Shown piece after piece: positions 34,948 to 40,773 of a DNA stretch of 40,773 nucleotides (positions are counted from its first letter, which is position 1; each line of letters begins with the position of its first letter). Source of the stretch: Prevotellaceae bacterium. Lineage in GTDB: Bacteria; Bacteroidota; Bacteroidia; Bacteroidales; UBA932. Under the pieces are notes generated by a model. The model made no database searches. It saw only the letters and a list, made by a program, of their open reading frames with translations, and was not told the DNA's origin. The translations under genes were made by a program, and so were the position numbers. Where the stretch lies: NCBI GenBank assembly GCA_031275825.1, contig JAISOH010000072.1, positions 1 through 40,773 of the forward strand, read 5' to 3'.

Positions 34948-34956
34948 TATATTTTG

Positions 34957-35001
34957 TGGGCCCAGTAGGGCTTGAACCTACGACCCCCTGATTATGAGTC
35001 A
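34957..35001 (-). pseudogene. 3' fragment of elongator tRNA-Met(CAT): attachment-site scar
   Basis: Minus strand tgactCATaatcagggggtcGTAGGttcaagcCCTACtgggccca: half anticodon stem, CAT anticodon loop, variable loop, perfect T arm, acceptor 3' strand. No D-arm or 5' acceptor follows (taattttattgcc...). Confidence 0.8.
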
Positions 35002-35124: not shown

Positions 35125-35394
35125 TTATTTTTGATTTTGAGATATTGTTCTTATTTCTTCTAAAAATTTTTCAATTCCCGCTATTATTTTTTGCTTTTGT
35201 TCGGCAGAAAAACAACTGGGATTGCCATTGGCATTTCTACCTGCCAATTTGCGCATTGTATTTGAAGTATAGCGTATTGCGCAATAATCAGGAAAAAAAC
35301 TGCGGCATTTCAGGTATTTAATTTTTTGGGTAAATTCGTCTATTTCTGGTTTTTTCATATTCATAAATTTTATAAGCCCTATGCCATTCCGCAA
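35125..35394 (-). CDS. Small hypothetical protein (start may be the internal MNMKKPEI)
   Basis: ORF in operon orientation; KxxxxxFLEEIRTISQNQK C-terminus; no family recognised. Confidence 0.5.
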   Translation of the reverse strand: MRNGIGLIKFMNMKKPEIDEFTQKIKYLKCRSFFPDYCAIRYTSNTMRKLAGRNANGNPSCFSAEQKQKIIAGIEKFLEEIRTISQNQK

Positions 35395-35593
35395 GGCGTT
35401 TCATTAATTTTTCTATTCTGTCGGCATTACCTTTGTAATGCTCATTGAACGAGTCTATCATATCAACGATTTCAAACCTGCCATTTTCTCTCACTTTTGC
35501 TAAAAATCGAGGCTTGCGCGTATGTAAAATATACACGCCATCGAGGTCTACCATTTTGTTTTCGGCAATTAAAAACGCAGGATAATCAGCCAT
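35318..35593 (-). CDS. Small hypothetical protein (MADYPAFLIAENKMVDLDGVY...)
   Basis: Start moved to MADYP at 35593, overlapping the IbrB-like stop by 8 bp (translational coupling). Confidence 0.6.
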   Translation of the reverse strand: MADYPAFLIAENKMVDLDGVYILHTRKPRFLAKVRENGRFEIVDMIDSFNEHYKGNADRIEKLMKRLAEWHRAYKIYEYEKTRNRRIYPKN

Positions 35594-36245
35594 TTTCCAC
35601 CTCCCATGCCTGCGAAAATTCATTATCGATAAACAGCGAAGCAATGCCTGTTAACTGTTTCAGCCGCAATATTTCGTCTGTATCCATACCTATATGTTTT
35701 TTTATCCATGTTTCCTTGCGACCGAGCAGTATCAGTTCTTTTACTATATTGCTCATCAAATCAATATCGTGCGAGCCGCGAGCGCGGTTGTGTCGAATTG
35801 TTGATGCCATGCGGCTGTCAAGTTCGCGGTGATCTTCGCGAATAAACGACACAGGCAAACGTCCAAAAGTGCTTGCGCTTATTTTTTTCGATTTTCGTTC
35901 CGACTGCCGACGATGAAAGCCATCAACTATTCTGATTATATCTTCTTCCGGATTGCCAACAATCGGCATTGTATAGCCATCTTCCTCTATGGAAGTAATA
36001 AGCAGCGCCATTTCGGGCGGAGCCACGCTGTTCGGATTATAATCGTTACCTTCTATTTTTTCTGATTTTTCCCATGCTACAAAATCAACCGGATGGTGTT
36101 TTAATGGGCTTACTTTGTGCAGTTCAGCGCGAACATAATTAAGTGCATCAATTTTTTCATCTACATCGGTTATTGCGCTTATCAATGCGCACAGTTCTTT
36201 AATTTTATCTTTTATATTTGCCTGATTGTTAAATAAATCTGTCAT
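35586..36245 (-). CDS. IbrB-like ParB/Srx-fold protein
   Basis: NDYNPNSVAPPEMALLITSIEEDGYTMPIV, RIVDGFHRRQ, GRLPVSFI, RMASTIRHNRARGSHDIDLM, LGRKETWIKKHIGMDTDEILRLKQLTGIASLF. Confidence 0.88.
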   Translation of the reverse strand: MTDLFNNQANIKDKIKELCALISAITDVDEKIDALNYVRAELHKVSPLKHHPVDFVAWEKSEKIEGNDYNPNSVAPPEMALLITSIEEDGYTMPIVGNPEEDIIRIVDGFHRRQSERKSKKISASTFGRLPVSFIREDHRELDSRMASTIRHNRARGSHDIDLMSNIVKELILLGRKETWIKKHIGMDTDEILRLKQLTGIASLFIDNEFSQAWEVENG

Positions 36246-37561
36246 AACATATCATTATATTTCTGTAATAATTCATTTTGTCGCAATACCTGTCGTTTTG
36301 TTATTGAGAATGAAAGCGATTGACAGGTAATATCATTCTTTAAAATGGTCATACACAATCTTTTCCATGAAAGAAAATCAGCCTTATTGTCAAGCCCCGG
36401 CAATACATCGGGAATGGATTTTGCCTTTATTACTTCTTTGTAGCCTTTACCGCGATTACTGAATGTATGTGTATTAATAAACGCATCGGGAGCCAGTTCT
36501 TCAAATAATTTAATATCATTTTCAGCGATTGGACATCCGACTTGTTGCCAGTAGCGAATAAATCTGACGAACTTTTTTGTGTAAATATCACGGGTTTCTT
36601 TTGGCAGGGTTTTTAACAGGAATTTACAGTAACTTTTCCATGTATGACCTTGCGGCAGGTCAATATGTTTTGCGCCGGTTGCCTTGCTGCCTGCATAGAT
36701 ATTGCCGAAGTTTGCGCCCGAAACTCTGTCCACAACCCTAAACCATGTTTCCGGTTCTATTATCTTAAACATATTTAATCCCGCTTTCTGTTCATCTCCA
36801 TAAGGCTCGCAAATCCGCATCTTATGAAGCGGAACGCCGGCTTTGTAGAATAAATCGTAAATCCTGTTATAAGGCTTATGAAATTTACCGTTGTATGTCC
36901 AAATATCATTCACATGCCAATCGTAAACCGGATAAAAATTTACCGTACTGTCAGATACGACTGTCGAATATATTTTACTATCATAAATTCCCTTGTCGGC
37001 TCGTGCAATCGCACGGAATCTGTTCAAACTTTCATCTGTTCTGATACCCACAAGGCAGGCGGTACTTCCGCCGCCATGAACAGCGGCATACCAGTCTCCG
37101 AACTGTTCGATAAATTCCTCAAATGTCATATTCTGTTTATAAAAATCAAACGGATTATTTTTTTCGCTGATTATAAAATTATATGCAGGCATCGGTCGCA
37201 CCCATTTATCGCGCTTGCTTTCTTCCCAGAATATCCAGTAAGGTTCATACATCGAAACCGCATTTGTTGTAAGCATCGGCAAACATACCCAATACGGCTC
37301 AATCAAATCTAAATTATCAAAAATCATTTTTTCTATAAAGTTAATCGTTCCTTTATAAAAAGCCTCTAAATCAATGAATAATATACCTATTTTCTTCTTA
37401 ATATTATTTTTACGCATATAGTCAACAACGAGATTAAATACAACCCCGCTATCCTTACCGCCTGAAAATGAAACATAAATATTTTCAAAATTTTTAAATA
37501 TATAATCTATCCTGTTGTTAGCGGCATCGTAAACATTAATATTTAAGTAATACTTTTTCAT
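36242..37561 (-). CDS. IbrA-like phosphoadenosine phosphosulfate reductase family (PP-loop, DUF3440-like) protein
   Basis: NVYDAANNRIDYIFKNFENIYVSFSGGKDSGVVFNLV PP-loop; GILFIDLEAFYKGT; IEPYWVCLPMLTTNAVSMYEPYWIFWEESKRDKWVRPMP; overlaps ibrB start by 4 bp. Confidence 0.9.
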   Translation of the reverse strand: MKKYYLNINVYDAANNRIDYIFKNFENIYVSFSGGKDSGVVFNLVVDYMRKNNIKKKIGILFIDLEAFYKGTINFIEKMIFDNLDLIEPYWVCLPMLTTNAVSMYEPYWIFWEESKRDKWVRPMPAYNFIISEKNNPFDFYKQNMTFEEFIEQFGDWYAAVHGGGSTACLVGIRTDESLNRFRAIARADKGIYDSKIYSTVVSDSTVNFYPVYDWHVNDIWTYNGKFHKPYNRIYDLFYKAGVPLHKMRICEPYGDEQKAGLNMFKIIEPETWFRVVDRVSGANFGNIYAGSKATGAKHIDLPQGHTWKSYCKFLLKTLPKETRDIYTKKFVRFIRYWQQVGCPIAENDIKLFEELAPDAFINTHTFSNRGKGYKEVIKAKSIPDVLPGLDNKADFLSWKRLCMTILKNDITCQSLSFSITKRQVLRQNELLQKYNDML

Positions 37562-37968
37562 AATATCAATTCAACCCTGTGCCATTTTGTAAATGCCTTG
37601 ATTATTTTAAATCCCGCCTTCAAATAGTGCGGCAAACATTCATTGGTACAGTCTGCTTTAATGTGCTTTATTCCATTTTTTTTACACCATTTTATACGTT
37701 CCGATATTAATTTTTTATGAATGCCTTTTTGTCTGTAATCGGGAATAACATAATCATACGTAAATTCGACATCTTTTTGTGTTTGCCGTATTGCTGAAAA
37801 TCCAGCCAAATTTTCATTATCGAAAACAATAAACCAGCAATAATTTTCGTCTGTCAAAATCGGATAACCATCAAACATTGCCACAATACTGCGATTCATT
37901 GCATACGGAGCAATGAGTTCGTATAGCCGTTTGTCTGTTCCTGATAGTTTTTGTATTTTCATTTTCAT
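37558..37968 (-). CDS. GNAT-family N-acetyltransferase
   Basis: FTYDYVIPDYRQKGIHKKLISERIKWCKKNGIKHIKADCTNECLPHYLKAGFKII; overlaps the IbrA-like start by 4 bp. Confidence 0.85.
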   Translation of the reverse strand: MKMKIQKLSGTDKRLYELIAPYAMNRSIVAMFDGYPILTDENYCWFIVFDNENLAGFSAIRQTQKDVEFTYDYVIPDYRQKGIHKKLISERIKWCKKNGIKHIKADCTNECLPHYLKAGFKIIKAFTKWHRVELIL

Positions 37969-38001: not shown

Positions 38002-39642
38002 TTATAAACTTTCGATATATTTTTTCAATTTTGTTTTGTCAAGCATAAGCCGTTTTATCTCATCTGCCAGATTGCCCTTGCGCCTCAAATTTCGCATGAT
38101 TTTATCGTCAATATTTGCTTCCGTGCGAAAATCATGTATAAACATTTTATTTCTTTGCCCCTGCCTGTCGATACGTCCGACAGACTGTTTTCTGTGAAAA
38201 TATGAAAATGAATTTGAAAAAAATACAATCCTTCGGCATACTTCCTGTAATCCATTCAGCCCTGTGCCGCCTGACTGCATTGTCGCAACAAAATATTTCT
38301 TTTTACCGCTCACGAAGTCGGCAAGTTCGGCATCGCGATCCTGCGGATTTTTGCCTGTAAAAACAGCACAGTTTTCATATCCGAAATAATCGACAATCAT
38401 TTCAATTTCAAATATATATTTACAAAAGAAAATCACCTGTTCATCAGCGGGAATATTGTTCATAAGCGAAAATTTGTTTGTTCCCAAATATTCACGCTCA
38501 TTGTCATGCCTGCAATAACCGCAGCAAATCTGCTGCATTCGAGTAAATGACTTGAATATGTCTGTTGCATAGAAATTATCGCTCTTTATCTTATCAAGCA
38601 GCCATTCCTTTTCTTCGTGATACAGTTCATATTGAATGTCATTCATTTTACATGTATGTATATAAAATTGCTTTGCCGGCAAATTTAAACATTCTTCTTT
38701 CGTGATTTGATAAGTGTAAGGTTCGAGTAAACCCATAAGGTGGTCAATATTCTTGTAACCTATAATCTCATCACCGAACATGCCGCCCATTACTAAATAT
38801 CTTTCTTCAAACTTTTTCCAGTCGCGAACTCCGATAATCAGCGGCGACAAACACGCATACTGCATATAAAGATTATGAACATTATCGGTTACAGGCGTGC
38901 CTGTCATTACAAGTTTGTAACTGGTTTTATCGCAAACCATTTTAATACGTTTCGACCGCTTGGCAGTCGGCGTTTTTATTGCATGGCTTTCGTCTATAAT
39001 GATTTGCGTTTCGCTGTCGGCGAAATTCAGAGCCTCAAAAACAGCCCTGTTGCTGCTGCTCATGCTCTCATGCCCGATTAATTTCCATTCGATTTCCTTG
39101 TGGGCGCACCACAAGTCAATTTGCGCCTGAAAGTTTTTTTTAGTCGAAACAGGCAGAAATACAAGAACTTTCTTTATTTCTTTTGCCTCGTATCGACTTA
39201 CGGCAATATCAATAGCAATCTTAGATTTGCCGGTGCCGGTATCGGCATACAGCGCCGACACTTTCATCGAGCAGCAAAACCGCAACGCATCAGCCTGATG
39301 GCGCAGACTGCTATCGTCATAAACAGGAAGAATATCATCGCGCAATCGGATATGTAGCGGCGTCTGTTTGCGTTCAAGTTCACAGTCGTTTATTATCTCG
39401 TAAAACTGTCGTTCAATTTCCGCTTTATATTCTGTTTCAAGCGAGCGGTCGCGCAGTTCGGCGCACCTCATATTTTCAATGCGCACAAAAACAGTCAGTC
39501 TGTCGTTTACAACTTCAAACCATGCAACAGTTGTAATATCTCTGTTATTTTGCCCGAATTTAAAATATAACCGCTCGACTTTGTCGGTTTTAAAAAGGCG
39601 AGAATATTTAATCCTCGCCTGCAATTTATCAAGCTGATTCAT
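38002..39642 (-). CDS. SNF2/DEAD-like helicase (SWI2/SNF2 ATPase)
   Basis: SALYADTGTGKSKIAIDIA (Walker A), IIIDESHAIKTPTAKRSKR (DESH), LVMTGTPVTDNVHNLY, SVGRIDRQGQRNKMFIHDF (motif VI). Confidence 0.92.
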   Translation of the reverse strand: MNQLDKLQARIKYSRLFKTDKVERLYFKFGQNNRDITTVAWFEVVNDRLTVFVRIENMRCAELRDRSLETEYKAEIERQFYEIINDCELERKQTPLHIRLRDDILPVYDDSSLRHQADALRFCCSMKVSALYADTGTGKSKIAIDIAVSRYEAKEIKKVLVFLPVSTKKNFQAQIDLWCAHKEIEWKLIGHESMSSSNRAVFEALNFADSETQIIIDESHAIKTPTAKRSKRIKMVCDKTSYKLVMTGTPVTDNVHNLYMQYACLSPLIIGVRDWKKFEERYLVMGGMFGDEIIGYKNIDHLMGLLEPYTYQITKEECLNLPAKQFYIHTCKMNDIQYELYHEEKEWLLDKIKSDNFYATDIFKSFTRMQQICCGYCRHDNEREYLGTNKFSLMNNIPADEQVIFFCKYIFEIEMIVDYFGYENCAVFTGKNPQDRDAELADFVSGKKKYFVATMQSGGTGLNGLQEVCRRIVFFSNSFSYFHRKQSVGRIDRQGQRNKMFIHDFRTEANIDDKIMRNLRRKGNLADEIKRLMLDKTKLKKYIESL

Positions 39643-39644
39643 CC

Positions 39645-40220
39645 TTATAATTTTAATATGTCTATTATTTTATTTTCATCAAGCAAATCGTAGAATGATG
39701 ATTTACCTGCTTCAATAATATTAGGAAAATCGCCTGCTATTGGCGTATTATCGTCATCTATAAAAGTACCGACAAAACCGATTTTGCCGCCAAAATCGTA
39801 CACTCTAACGCCAAGTTCGCCGCTAAATTTCATTGATAATAATACAAAAAACACTTCTTCGGGCTTCAAAAAATCATACTGCGGATATTTTTCATAAAAA
39901 TTTATAATCGCATCTATACGTAATATAATTGCAGAATAAAACGAATGATTTTTGGGTATCATTTTTATTATGTTCTCGCGCGTTTTCTGCTGATTTGCCT
40001 GCTTCACTTCGCAATTTTTACAGGATATTTCGCCTGTGCTTCCAAAGCAATTAAGCATTATTTCGCGAACATATTCCAGCATACTGTCATCAAACCAGAA
40101 TGCGTTATCTTTCCATATTCCGCGCAAATTGCGAGCTTTGGATATGAACTGCGAATGATAAGGCGATGTTACTTTCACCTTGTCATCTATAATTTCAAGT
40201 TTAATTTCCTTATTTTTCAT
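39645..40220 (-). CDS. HARP-like domain protein, coupled to the SNF2 gene
   Basis: VTSPYHSQFISKARNLRGIWKDNAFWFDDSMLEYVREIMLNCFG resembles the HARP-type module at the N-terminus of SMARCAL1-like SNF2 proteins; 2 bp gap to the SNF2 ORF. Confidence 0.5.
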   Translation of the reverse strand: MKNKEIKLEIIDDKVKVTSPYHSQFISKARNLRGIWKDNAFWFDDSMLEYVREIMLNCFGSTGEISCKNCEVKQANQQKTRENIIKMIPKNHSFYSAIILRIDAIINFYEKYPQYDFLKPEEVFFVLLSMKFSGELGVRVYDFGGKIGFVGTFIDDDNTPIAGDFPNIIEAGKSSFYDLLDENKIIDILKL

Positions 40221-40231
40221 AATTTAAAATT

Positions 40232-40468
40232 TTAATAATTAAACCATTTTACTTTTTTTGAAGAATACTGTAATTTACAGTCGTTTTTTTCAAGAATAAA
40301 AGCCGCAATCCAAACCGCCTGTGATTTTTGCGGATCGTAATCGTATCCAAATACCATTGACTTGGGAATAATCGCAGTTGAGCCATCGTAGGCTGCTGCC
40401 TTGTAAGTTTTGTCCGTGTAATTTGTAAGACTTTCAAGCCTTACCGAGTAACATTTAATTTTTTTCAT
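40232..40468 (-). CDS. Small hypothetical protein (MKKIKCYSVRLESLTNYTDKTYKAAAYDGSTAIIPKSMVFGYDYD...)
   Basis: ORF directly upstream of the HARP-like gene, with a good promoter upstream. Confidence 0.65.
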   Translation of the reverse strand: MKKIKCYSVRLESLTNYTDKTYKAAAYDGSTAIIPKSMVFGYDYDPQKSQAVWIAAFILEKNDCKLQYSSKKVKWFNY

Positions 40469-40528: not shown

Positions 40529-40558
40529 CAAAGATAGATATAATTTTCTATCTGCAAA
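40529..40558 (-). promoter_or_regulatory. Promoter of the minus-strand element operon (TTTG-N18-TATCTTTG)
   Basis: caaagata at 40529-40536 and caaa at 40555-40558 on + strand. Confidence 0.5.
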
Positions 40559-40617
40559 AAAATCATTTCCGTTAAATAATCTTAATAAGAAGAAAATATT
40601 TTTATAGATATTGAAAA

Positions 40618-40652
40618 TCAAAAAAATATAGAAAGCCCTTTTCGGGGCTTTC
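40618..40652 (-). terminator. Intrinsic terminator for the rightmost minus-strand ORF
   Basis: gaaagccc / gggctttc hairpin followed on the minus strand by tatattttttt. Confidence 0.65.
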
Positions 40653-40677
40653 AAAAAAAAAGAAATTGAAAAACAAA

Positions 40678-40773
40678 TTATTTCTTAAATTTGCTTATAA
40701 ATTTGTATGCGTAAATTATTGCTGTTATTATCGTTGCGCATATTGCAATCCACATTATATATTTTAACCAGTA
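40678..40773 (-). CDS. Small single-TM protein, N-terminus beyond the window
   Basis: Minus-strand frame reads ...WLKYIMWIAICATIITAIIYAYKFISKFKK*; hydrophobic helix plus basic tail. Confidence 0.45.
   Translation of the reverse strand, partial: YWLKYIMWIAICATIITAIIYAYKFISKFKK

Follow-up and report, generated by a model that had tools for sequence, protein, structure and literature searches.

The GNAT-IbrA-IbrB cassette and its conservation

Contig JAISOH010000072.1 of a Prevotellaceae bacterium (GenBank assembly GCA_031275825.1), analyzed over its full length of 40,773 nucleotides and referred to here as the window, carries a cassette of three minus-strand genes that encode a GNAT-fold protein (37558..37968; 136 amino acids; PF00583, E value 4.7e-10), IbrA (36242..37561; 439 amino acids), and IbrB (35586..36245; 219 amino acids). 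A preliminary description of this DNA gave these three open reading frames (ORFs) with the correct coordinates and strand, and the 4-bp junctions that it reported are real: on the plus strand, the sequence is TCAT at 37558-37561 and again at 36242-36245, i.e., both are ATGA start/stop overlaps. The cassette lies within an extended run of same-strand genes, which spans 40468 to approximately 35125 with gaps of no more than 33 bp and comprises, in this order, a phrog_5809 protein, a 191-amino-acid protein, an SNF2-type helicase, GNAT, IbrA, IbrB, and two small genes. The helicase gene (38002..39642, minus strand; phrog_62, 2.3e-87; PF00176) lies directly upstream of the GNAT gene, with which it probably shares a transcript.

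Conservation of this arrangement was assessed in a set of 175 loci with full IbrA, collected from phage records, viral contigs, and genomes. In 173 of the 175 loci, IbrB lies no more than 2.5 kb from IbrA; the SNF2 helicase family present in the window is found within the same distance in 36, and a GNAT-like homolog directly adjoins IbrA, upstream or downstream, in 17. When the window GNAT was used as the sole query, the 174 remaining IbrA loci yielded 13 homologs, every one of them encoded right beside IbrA on the same strand, where approximately 12% would be expected; the nominal p value for this adjacency (~1.5e-12) is only indicative, because the loci are partly related. GNAT hits returned by an iterated profile in loci L179 and L085 proved spurious (E value ~2-5e-4, inside the IbrB or helicase ORF) and were dropped, and a reverse search of viral contigs for GNAT relatives found none. 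At least 11 changes are needed to place the GNAT label on the IbrA tree, which does not distinguish gains from losses. Taken together with the 13/13 adjacency, this number of changes indicates that the GNAT association is recurrent and not one local accident.

Better support for the association than the nominal p value comes from an independent sample of Bacteroidales. DUF3440, a domain of IbrA, is present in 34 of 393 Bacteroidales genomes, and the GNAT gene is immediately upstream of IbrA in 25 of the 29 loci examined (11 genera, 9 families). Two loci, L212 and L215, are cut short and could not be judged; thus, 25 of 27 judgeable loci have the genes in the order GNAT-IbrA-IbrB, whereas in L228 and L230 a helicase occupies the place of GNAT upstream of IbrA. 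The co-occurrence survey that the preliminary description had proposed therefore revealed a nonrandom association, and not the random one that it had named as telling against its hypothesis, and the three genes that it had grouped constitute a conserved unit. Of 20 Bacteroidales regions viewed over 12 kb, 19 keep the three genes side by side, with no recurrent outer neighbor across genera; in one of these regions, a helicase is found upstream of the triplet, as in the window. Because the triplet keeps together without recurrent outer neighbors, the cassette is a self-contained three-gene unit, which in Bacteroidales usually stands alone on the chromosome, is also found in prophages, and has a patchy distribution.

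Some chromosomal copies do have neighbors in common. In L167, L172, and L176 (Phocaeicola/Bacteroidales), GNAT-IbrA-IbrB is located directly downstream of a periplasmic-binding-protein/FecCD/ABC transporter operon (families assigned from a Pfam scan of L167 only); this FecCD-type neighbor is not recurrent in other Bacteroidales genera.

Features of the three proteins

IbrA consists of a PP-loop ATP pyrophosphatase domain (residues ~1-268; PF01507, PAPS_reduct, 48.1 bits against a cutoff of 22.5) and a DUF3440 domain (residues 242-424; PF11922, 172.6 bits against a cutoff of 25, E value 9e-51), which is the architecture of the IbrA family, and it matches phrog_2302 over its full length (4e-105). 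Residue numbers are those of the full-length proteins; alignments A3/A5, A4/A6, and A7 and the structural models lack the initial methionine, so that their own numbers are lower by one. The SGGKDS loop is found at S33-S38, and its residues G35, K36, and D37 are invariant in 92 homologs. The AlphaFold2 model of IbrA has a predicted local distance difference test score (pLDDT) of 89.6; this and the IbrB model were built from alignments that left out the rows of annotated phage records. The loop, of the SGGxDS type, and the similarity of the model to PP-loop structures (Z scores of 13-15) place IbrA in the PP-loop ATP pyrophosphatase superfamily, as had been proposed from the first inspection of the locus. 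Among the matches listed, the closest to the model are the phosphoadenosine phosphosulfate (PAPS) domain of human FAD synthase (Z score of 15.2) and the ATP sulfurylase CysD (14.3), followed by PAPS and adenosine phosphosulfate (APS) reductases at 14.2 and below; TilS (MesJ), NcsA, and TtuA are weaker matches (~10-11.7).

A role of IbrA as a PAPS reductase was considered and ruled out. The catalytic motif of CysH, ECGLH/ECGIH, is found in none of the 92 IbrA homologs; CysH reads SFGIQAAV where IbrA keeps the ATP-using SGGKDS; and IbrA scores far below the cutoffs of the curated CysH models (PRK02090, 23.0 versus 154; TIGR00434, 23.2 versus 165.1). The score of IbrA against the DndC model TIGR03183 is likewise low (25.9 bits, cutoff 290.4). 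Neither the iron-sulfur cysteine set nor the DndC cysteine dyad, both as defined in PMC10853773, is conserved in the 92-98 aligned IbrA homologs, and CxxC is present in only 1 of 92 sequences. The only cysteines conserved at 90% or more are C93 (92%) and C413 (98%), which could in principle form a two-cysteine sulfur relay. Nine tryptophans are more than 90% conserved and would suit an aromatic pocket.

IbrB matches the ParB-like family phrog_2159 (3.5e-65) and adjoins IbrA, as expected for its family; its ParB/Srx-fold domain, which contains a DGFHR motif, is followed by a helix-turn-helix (HTH) region. The matches listed for its AlphaFold2 model (pLDDT 86.9) include KorB (Z score of 12.4), Noc/ParB (~11), Srx (9.3), and the free serine kinase SerK (~9), and the alignment with KorB spans both the ParB domain and the HTH. 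The DGFHR motif aligns with DGVHR of SbnI and not with GERR, the CTP motif of ParB. Thus, IbrB is predicted to be a ParB/Srx-fold protein with a kinase-like DGxHR motif. It is not a canonical partition ParB, given its score against TIGR00180 (15 versus 58.45 bits) and DGFHR in place of GERR.

The window GNAT is a clear member of its family (PF00583, 40.2 bits against a cutoff of 20.7) and retains an acetyl-CoA motif of the R/QxxGxG/A type, with RQKGIH at the aligned position. This motif is present in only 7 of 40 aligned IbrA-linked members, the window copy included, and absent from the other 33, among them L102, the closest relative, and nearly all other Bacteroidales copies, such as L167. 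What the family does conserve is W45, F57, Y16, P21, and the NNYPFKT region. With so few members retaining the acetyl-CoA motif, the alignment argues against acetylation as the general role of the GNAT partner, and a recognition or structural role appears more likely in most lineages. The earlier suggestion of an enzymatic, Mom-like acetyltransferase is weakened by the 33 homologs that lack the motif. The Mom family does not appear among the Pfam and PHROG matches, a search that included no direct comparison with a Mom model.

Alternative partners and the host element

In 38 of the IbrA loci, an EctC-type cupin adjoins IbrB or is fused to it. It is a true ectoine-synthase homolog (PF06339, 135.5 bits; 91 bits to the solved enzyme 5bxx). 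In phage contigs, the cupin is fused to or beside IbrB in L013, L020, L041, L043-L047, L050, L052, L056-L058, L063, and L070, and it stands alone in L010, L048, and others. The IbrA proteins of these 38 loci form a single clade on the IbrA tree, and the loci always also carry a family that we call W140 and a stand-alone DUF3440 piece, i.e., a small protein that matches only the C-terminal part of this domain (e.g., L012:2779-3042, L014:7559-7840, and L065:2454-2714). GNAT and cupin are never found together (0/38, Fisher p 0.015), which is weak evidence of exclusion, since the cupin class is one clade. Viral ectoine synthase has been interpreted in terms of osmoprotection, as an auxiliary metabolic gene (PMC13079714); the company of IbrAB in which the cupin occurs speaks against a part in sulfate metabolism or osmoprotection for phage genes of this kind. 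Our searches of the literature on ectoine synthase with ParB in phages and on ybdN/ybdM found nothing on biochemistry.

The W140 proteins (~130-140 amino acids) are encoded next to IbrB or fused to it in 63 loci, for example at L013:4521-4937, L087:5621-6019, and L018:4628-5026 (and ~60 others); in L075, the W140 protein is fused to IbrB. Their conserved motifs are WE, NR.AWIG.AAC, and TR.AW..LT, and neither of the two members scanned has a Pfam or PHROG match. W140 and the SNF2 helicase (63 and 36 loci, respectively) do not occur together in any locus.

The cassette is hosted by a tailed prophage. At its end, the window (contig C170) overlaps by 119 bp (40655..40773, by contig comparison) with contig C147, which carries the element onward with genes for an endolysin, a DNA methyltransferase, a holin, and tail and portal-type proteins. 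The methyltransferase gene (phrog_67; L005:986-2005) thus belongs to the same prophage as the cassette. At the left end of the element, a 50-bp repeat that contains the 3' half of tRNA-Met(CAT) forms a putative attachment site (34952..35001), and an identical copy is located inside an intact tRNA-Met (G000:C71:218-267). Because the left end of the element abuts this repeat, the cassette is positioned at the attachment-site end. Beyond it lie genes that appear, from inspection of their translations, to be those of host thymidylate synthase and dihydrofolate reductase. No integrase could be placed with certainty for this prophage: C171, the contig with an integrase gene, is not joined to C71, the contig with the attachment site. 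Rfam scans gave no matches in the window or in C147. The sequence beside the intact tRNA-Met (G000:C71:1-222) recurs at C70:1-222 (99%), C60, and C199; thus, the genome may contain further element ends of this kind. Separately, ~50-bp stretches of the window at ~40530-40620 are 81-84% identical to G000:C51:5015-5065 and C92:15843-15898.

The remaining genes of the run are likewise on the minus strand. Upstream of the helicase are a 191-amino-acid protein with no assigned function (39645..40220; phrog_18108, 6e-12) and the 78-amino-acid phrog_5809 protein (40232..40468), homologs of which also precede the helicase in IbrA loci L022, L054, L073, and L089. Downstream of the cassette, a 91-amino-acid gene (35318..35593; internal ATG of ORF 35318-35644; phrog_36815, 2.4e-4) overlaps the end of IbrB by 8 bp and has a weak homolog after IbrB in L054. 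The last gene before the end of the element is a small terminal ORF (35125..35394, from the ORF call) with no confident family in Pfam and PHROG scans.

Possible function and relation to known systems

The combination of an ATP-using PP-loop enzyme with a ParB/HTH partner, and with a helicase in many phages, makes a self-contained ATP-dependent nucleic-acid modification module with swappable partners the best single reading of the cassette, one that we hold tentatively. The nucleic-acid role that the preliminary description had put forward as a hypothesis for the triplet is plausible. In such a module, IbrA would act as an adenylating enzyme, spending ATP on the activation of a target group that is carried either by a base or by a small-molecule donor. 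IbrB, which would bind nucleotide and DNA, would direct this reaction to DNA or control it. A swappable third slot would be filled by the GNAT-like protein—perhaps, as a guess, as a substrate-recognition subunit in most lineages, with the window copy possibly a true acyltransferase—and the EctC cupin of many phages may occupy a similar third place. In loci of the helicase type, SNF2 would give access to DNA. The analysis establishes gene order, conservation, family membership, predicted folds, the retention and loss of motifs, and the variation in partners; from these we infer the adenylation chemistry, DNA as the nucleic acid acted on, the specificity role of GNAT, and the equivalence of the GNAT and cupin slots. 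A bolder version is possible but doubtful: IbrA-IbrB may be the core of an unrecognized family of systems that hypermodify DNA in an ATP-dependent manner and in which the tailoring or recognition module can be exchanged (in Bacteroidales, on chromosomes and in prophages, a degenerate GNAT-like protein; in a large clade of phages, EctC fused to the ParB-like protein).

The two closest structural matches listed for IbrA, FAD synthase and CysD, are both adenylyltransferases, which favors the modification module. Also in its favor are the near-constant IbrB partner, the recurrence of the triplet in Bacteroidales, the retained SGGKDS loop and missing ECGLH motif of IbrA, its nine conserved tryptophans, the KorB/Noc/ParB-like structure and SbnI-like DGxHR motif of IbrB, the variation in partners, and the published pairings of nucleic-acid-modifying enzymes with ParB-superfamily proteins (CmoX/CmoY with ParBc, DpdA-DpdB, and DndC-DndB). 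Several observations weigh against it. The same structural ranking puts adenylyltransferases and reductases within ~1 Z, so that it does not separate them; the only published IbrAB phenotype that we found, that of Sandt 2002 in the form cited in PMC6008420, is activation of the eib prophage genes; and numerous IbrAB pairs stand alone on chromosomes, with neither further DNA-modification genes nor defense islands around them. PADLOC and Pfam scans of the neighbors of these lone pairs revealed no recurrent partner and no enrichment of defense genes, and a small-molecule or regulatory role is therefore also possible. On the cassette proteins themselves, PADLOC gave only weak partial matches to DndC and BrxP. 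In the gut of carbadox-treated pigs, ibrA is reported to have risen 73-fold together with cro and capsid genes (PMC5550749); this rise with prophage induction genes fits a role in the induction phase and does not separate the candidate functions.

Regulation is the first alternative to consider: IbrA-IbrB could be a transcriptional co-activator, in which IbrB binds DNA and IbrA is an ATP- or metabolite-sensing partner, so that phage or host genes are switched on. The published naming and the E. coli eib phenotype as cited in PMC6008420, the ParB/KorB-like fold of IbrB with its HTH, and the 73-fold rise with cro and capsid genes all agree with this possibility. However, it leaves the intact catalytic PP-loop, the recurring EctC and GNAT partners, and the helicase unexplained, the window offers no obvious target gene, the chromosomal triplets lack any recurring neighbor that could be regulated, and an effect on expression could also arise indirectly from a modification; we therefore regard it as unlikely. 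Somewhat less probable still is a metabolite enzyme set, where IbrA would adenylate a metabolite, IbrB would be a SerK/SbnI-like kinase, and GNAT or EctC would tailor the product. The SbnI-like DGxHR motif, the Srx and SerK structural matches (Z scores of ~9), the usual action of the EctC and GNAT families on small molecules, and the transporter operon adjoining the Phocaeicola copy are consistent with such a set, but the ParB-type HTH region of IbrB and the phage and prophage setting with helicases are not, and the transporter does not recur beside the cassette in other genera of Bacteroidales.

The TilS and TtuA matches raise the prospect of a module that modifies tRNA or another RNA; this is improbable, as a ParB-type partner and a helicase point to DNA and the tRNA enzymes are not the closest structural matches of IbrA among those listed. 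DNA phosphorothioation or another sulfur transfer of the DndC type, which the preliminary description had brought up, is more improbable yet: weak local similarity of IbrA to DndC (PADLOC, 3e-8) and the potential C93/C413 relay speak for it, but the iron-sulfur cysteines and dyad are not conserved, the TIGR03183 score is far below its cutoff, and no DndA/D/E-like genes were recognized beside the cassette. Finally, the PF01507 match and common annotation notwithstanding, an auxiliary sulfate-assimilation gene (CysH) carried by phage is scarcely credible in view of the motif and score differences described above and the near-obligate ParB-like partner (173/175 loci).

IbrA and IbrB genes are widespread: they occur commonly on chromosomes and plasmids as well as in prophages and phages (Streptococcus phage CHPC1230 and Mycobacterium phage Nebkiss are examples), and IbrA is routinely annotated as PAPS reductase. 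The fixed GNAT-IbrA-IbrB unit of Bacteroidales and the EctC third gene elsewhere turn a vaguely defined pair into a testable three-part system, and some of the phage genes that are labeled "cysH" and "ectoine synthase" and counted as auxiliary metabolic genes may serve neither sulfate assimilation nor osmoprotection. Were the DNA hypermodification family to prove real, some of these genes would belong to the IbrA-IbrB family, and a module that modifies DNA would represent new chemistry of relevance to phage-host conflict.

The nearest known counterparts are the IbrAB island of E. coli and YbdN-YbdM of strain K-12, which have the same two families in the same order as the cassette. An IbrAB-like pair is present in 1,913 of 5,426 complete E. 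coli genomes, mostly with 80-90% DNA identity to the pair of phage PhiR5_2 (L017); such pairs are annotated as PAPS reductase and IbrB-like protein. GNAT is absent from the E. coli locus that we read and from PhiR5_2, whereas the window adds both GNAT and an SNF2 helicase. DndC-DndB is likewise a PP-loop enzyme with a ParB-superfamily protein (PMC10853773), but IbrA differs in its cysteines and model score, and the Dnd partner genes were not recognized. In the CmoX/CmoY system, a phage AMP-forming ligase near ParBc has been shown to hypermodify DNA (PMC12783734); there, CmoY is asparagine-synthetase-like and CmoX is a C5-carboxymethyltransferase, a pairing that we did not see with IbrA. DpdA-DpdB, which is responsible for 7-deazaguanine DNA modification, also joins a DNA-modifying enzyme to a ParB-like ATPase (PMC12839542), although its catalytic enzyme DpdA is a tRNA-guanine transglycosylase (TGT), unlike the PP-loop enzyme IbrA. 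FAD synthase and CysD share the ATP-using loop with IbrA but are metabolite adenylyltransferases without a ParB partner or DUF3440. EctC, which is not in the window, is known as ectoine synthase; as the cupin partner in the 38 related loci, the phage version stands apart, being fused to IbrB in several phages and surrounded by IbrAB, W140, and DUF3440-fragment genes.

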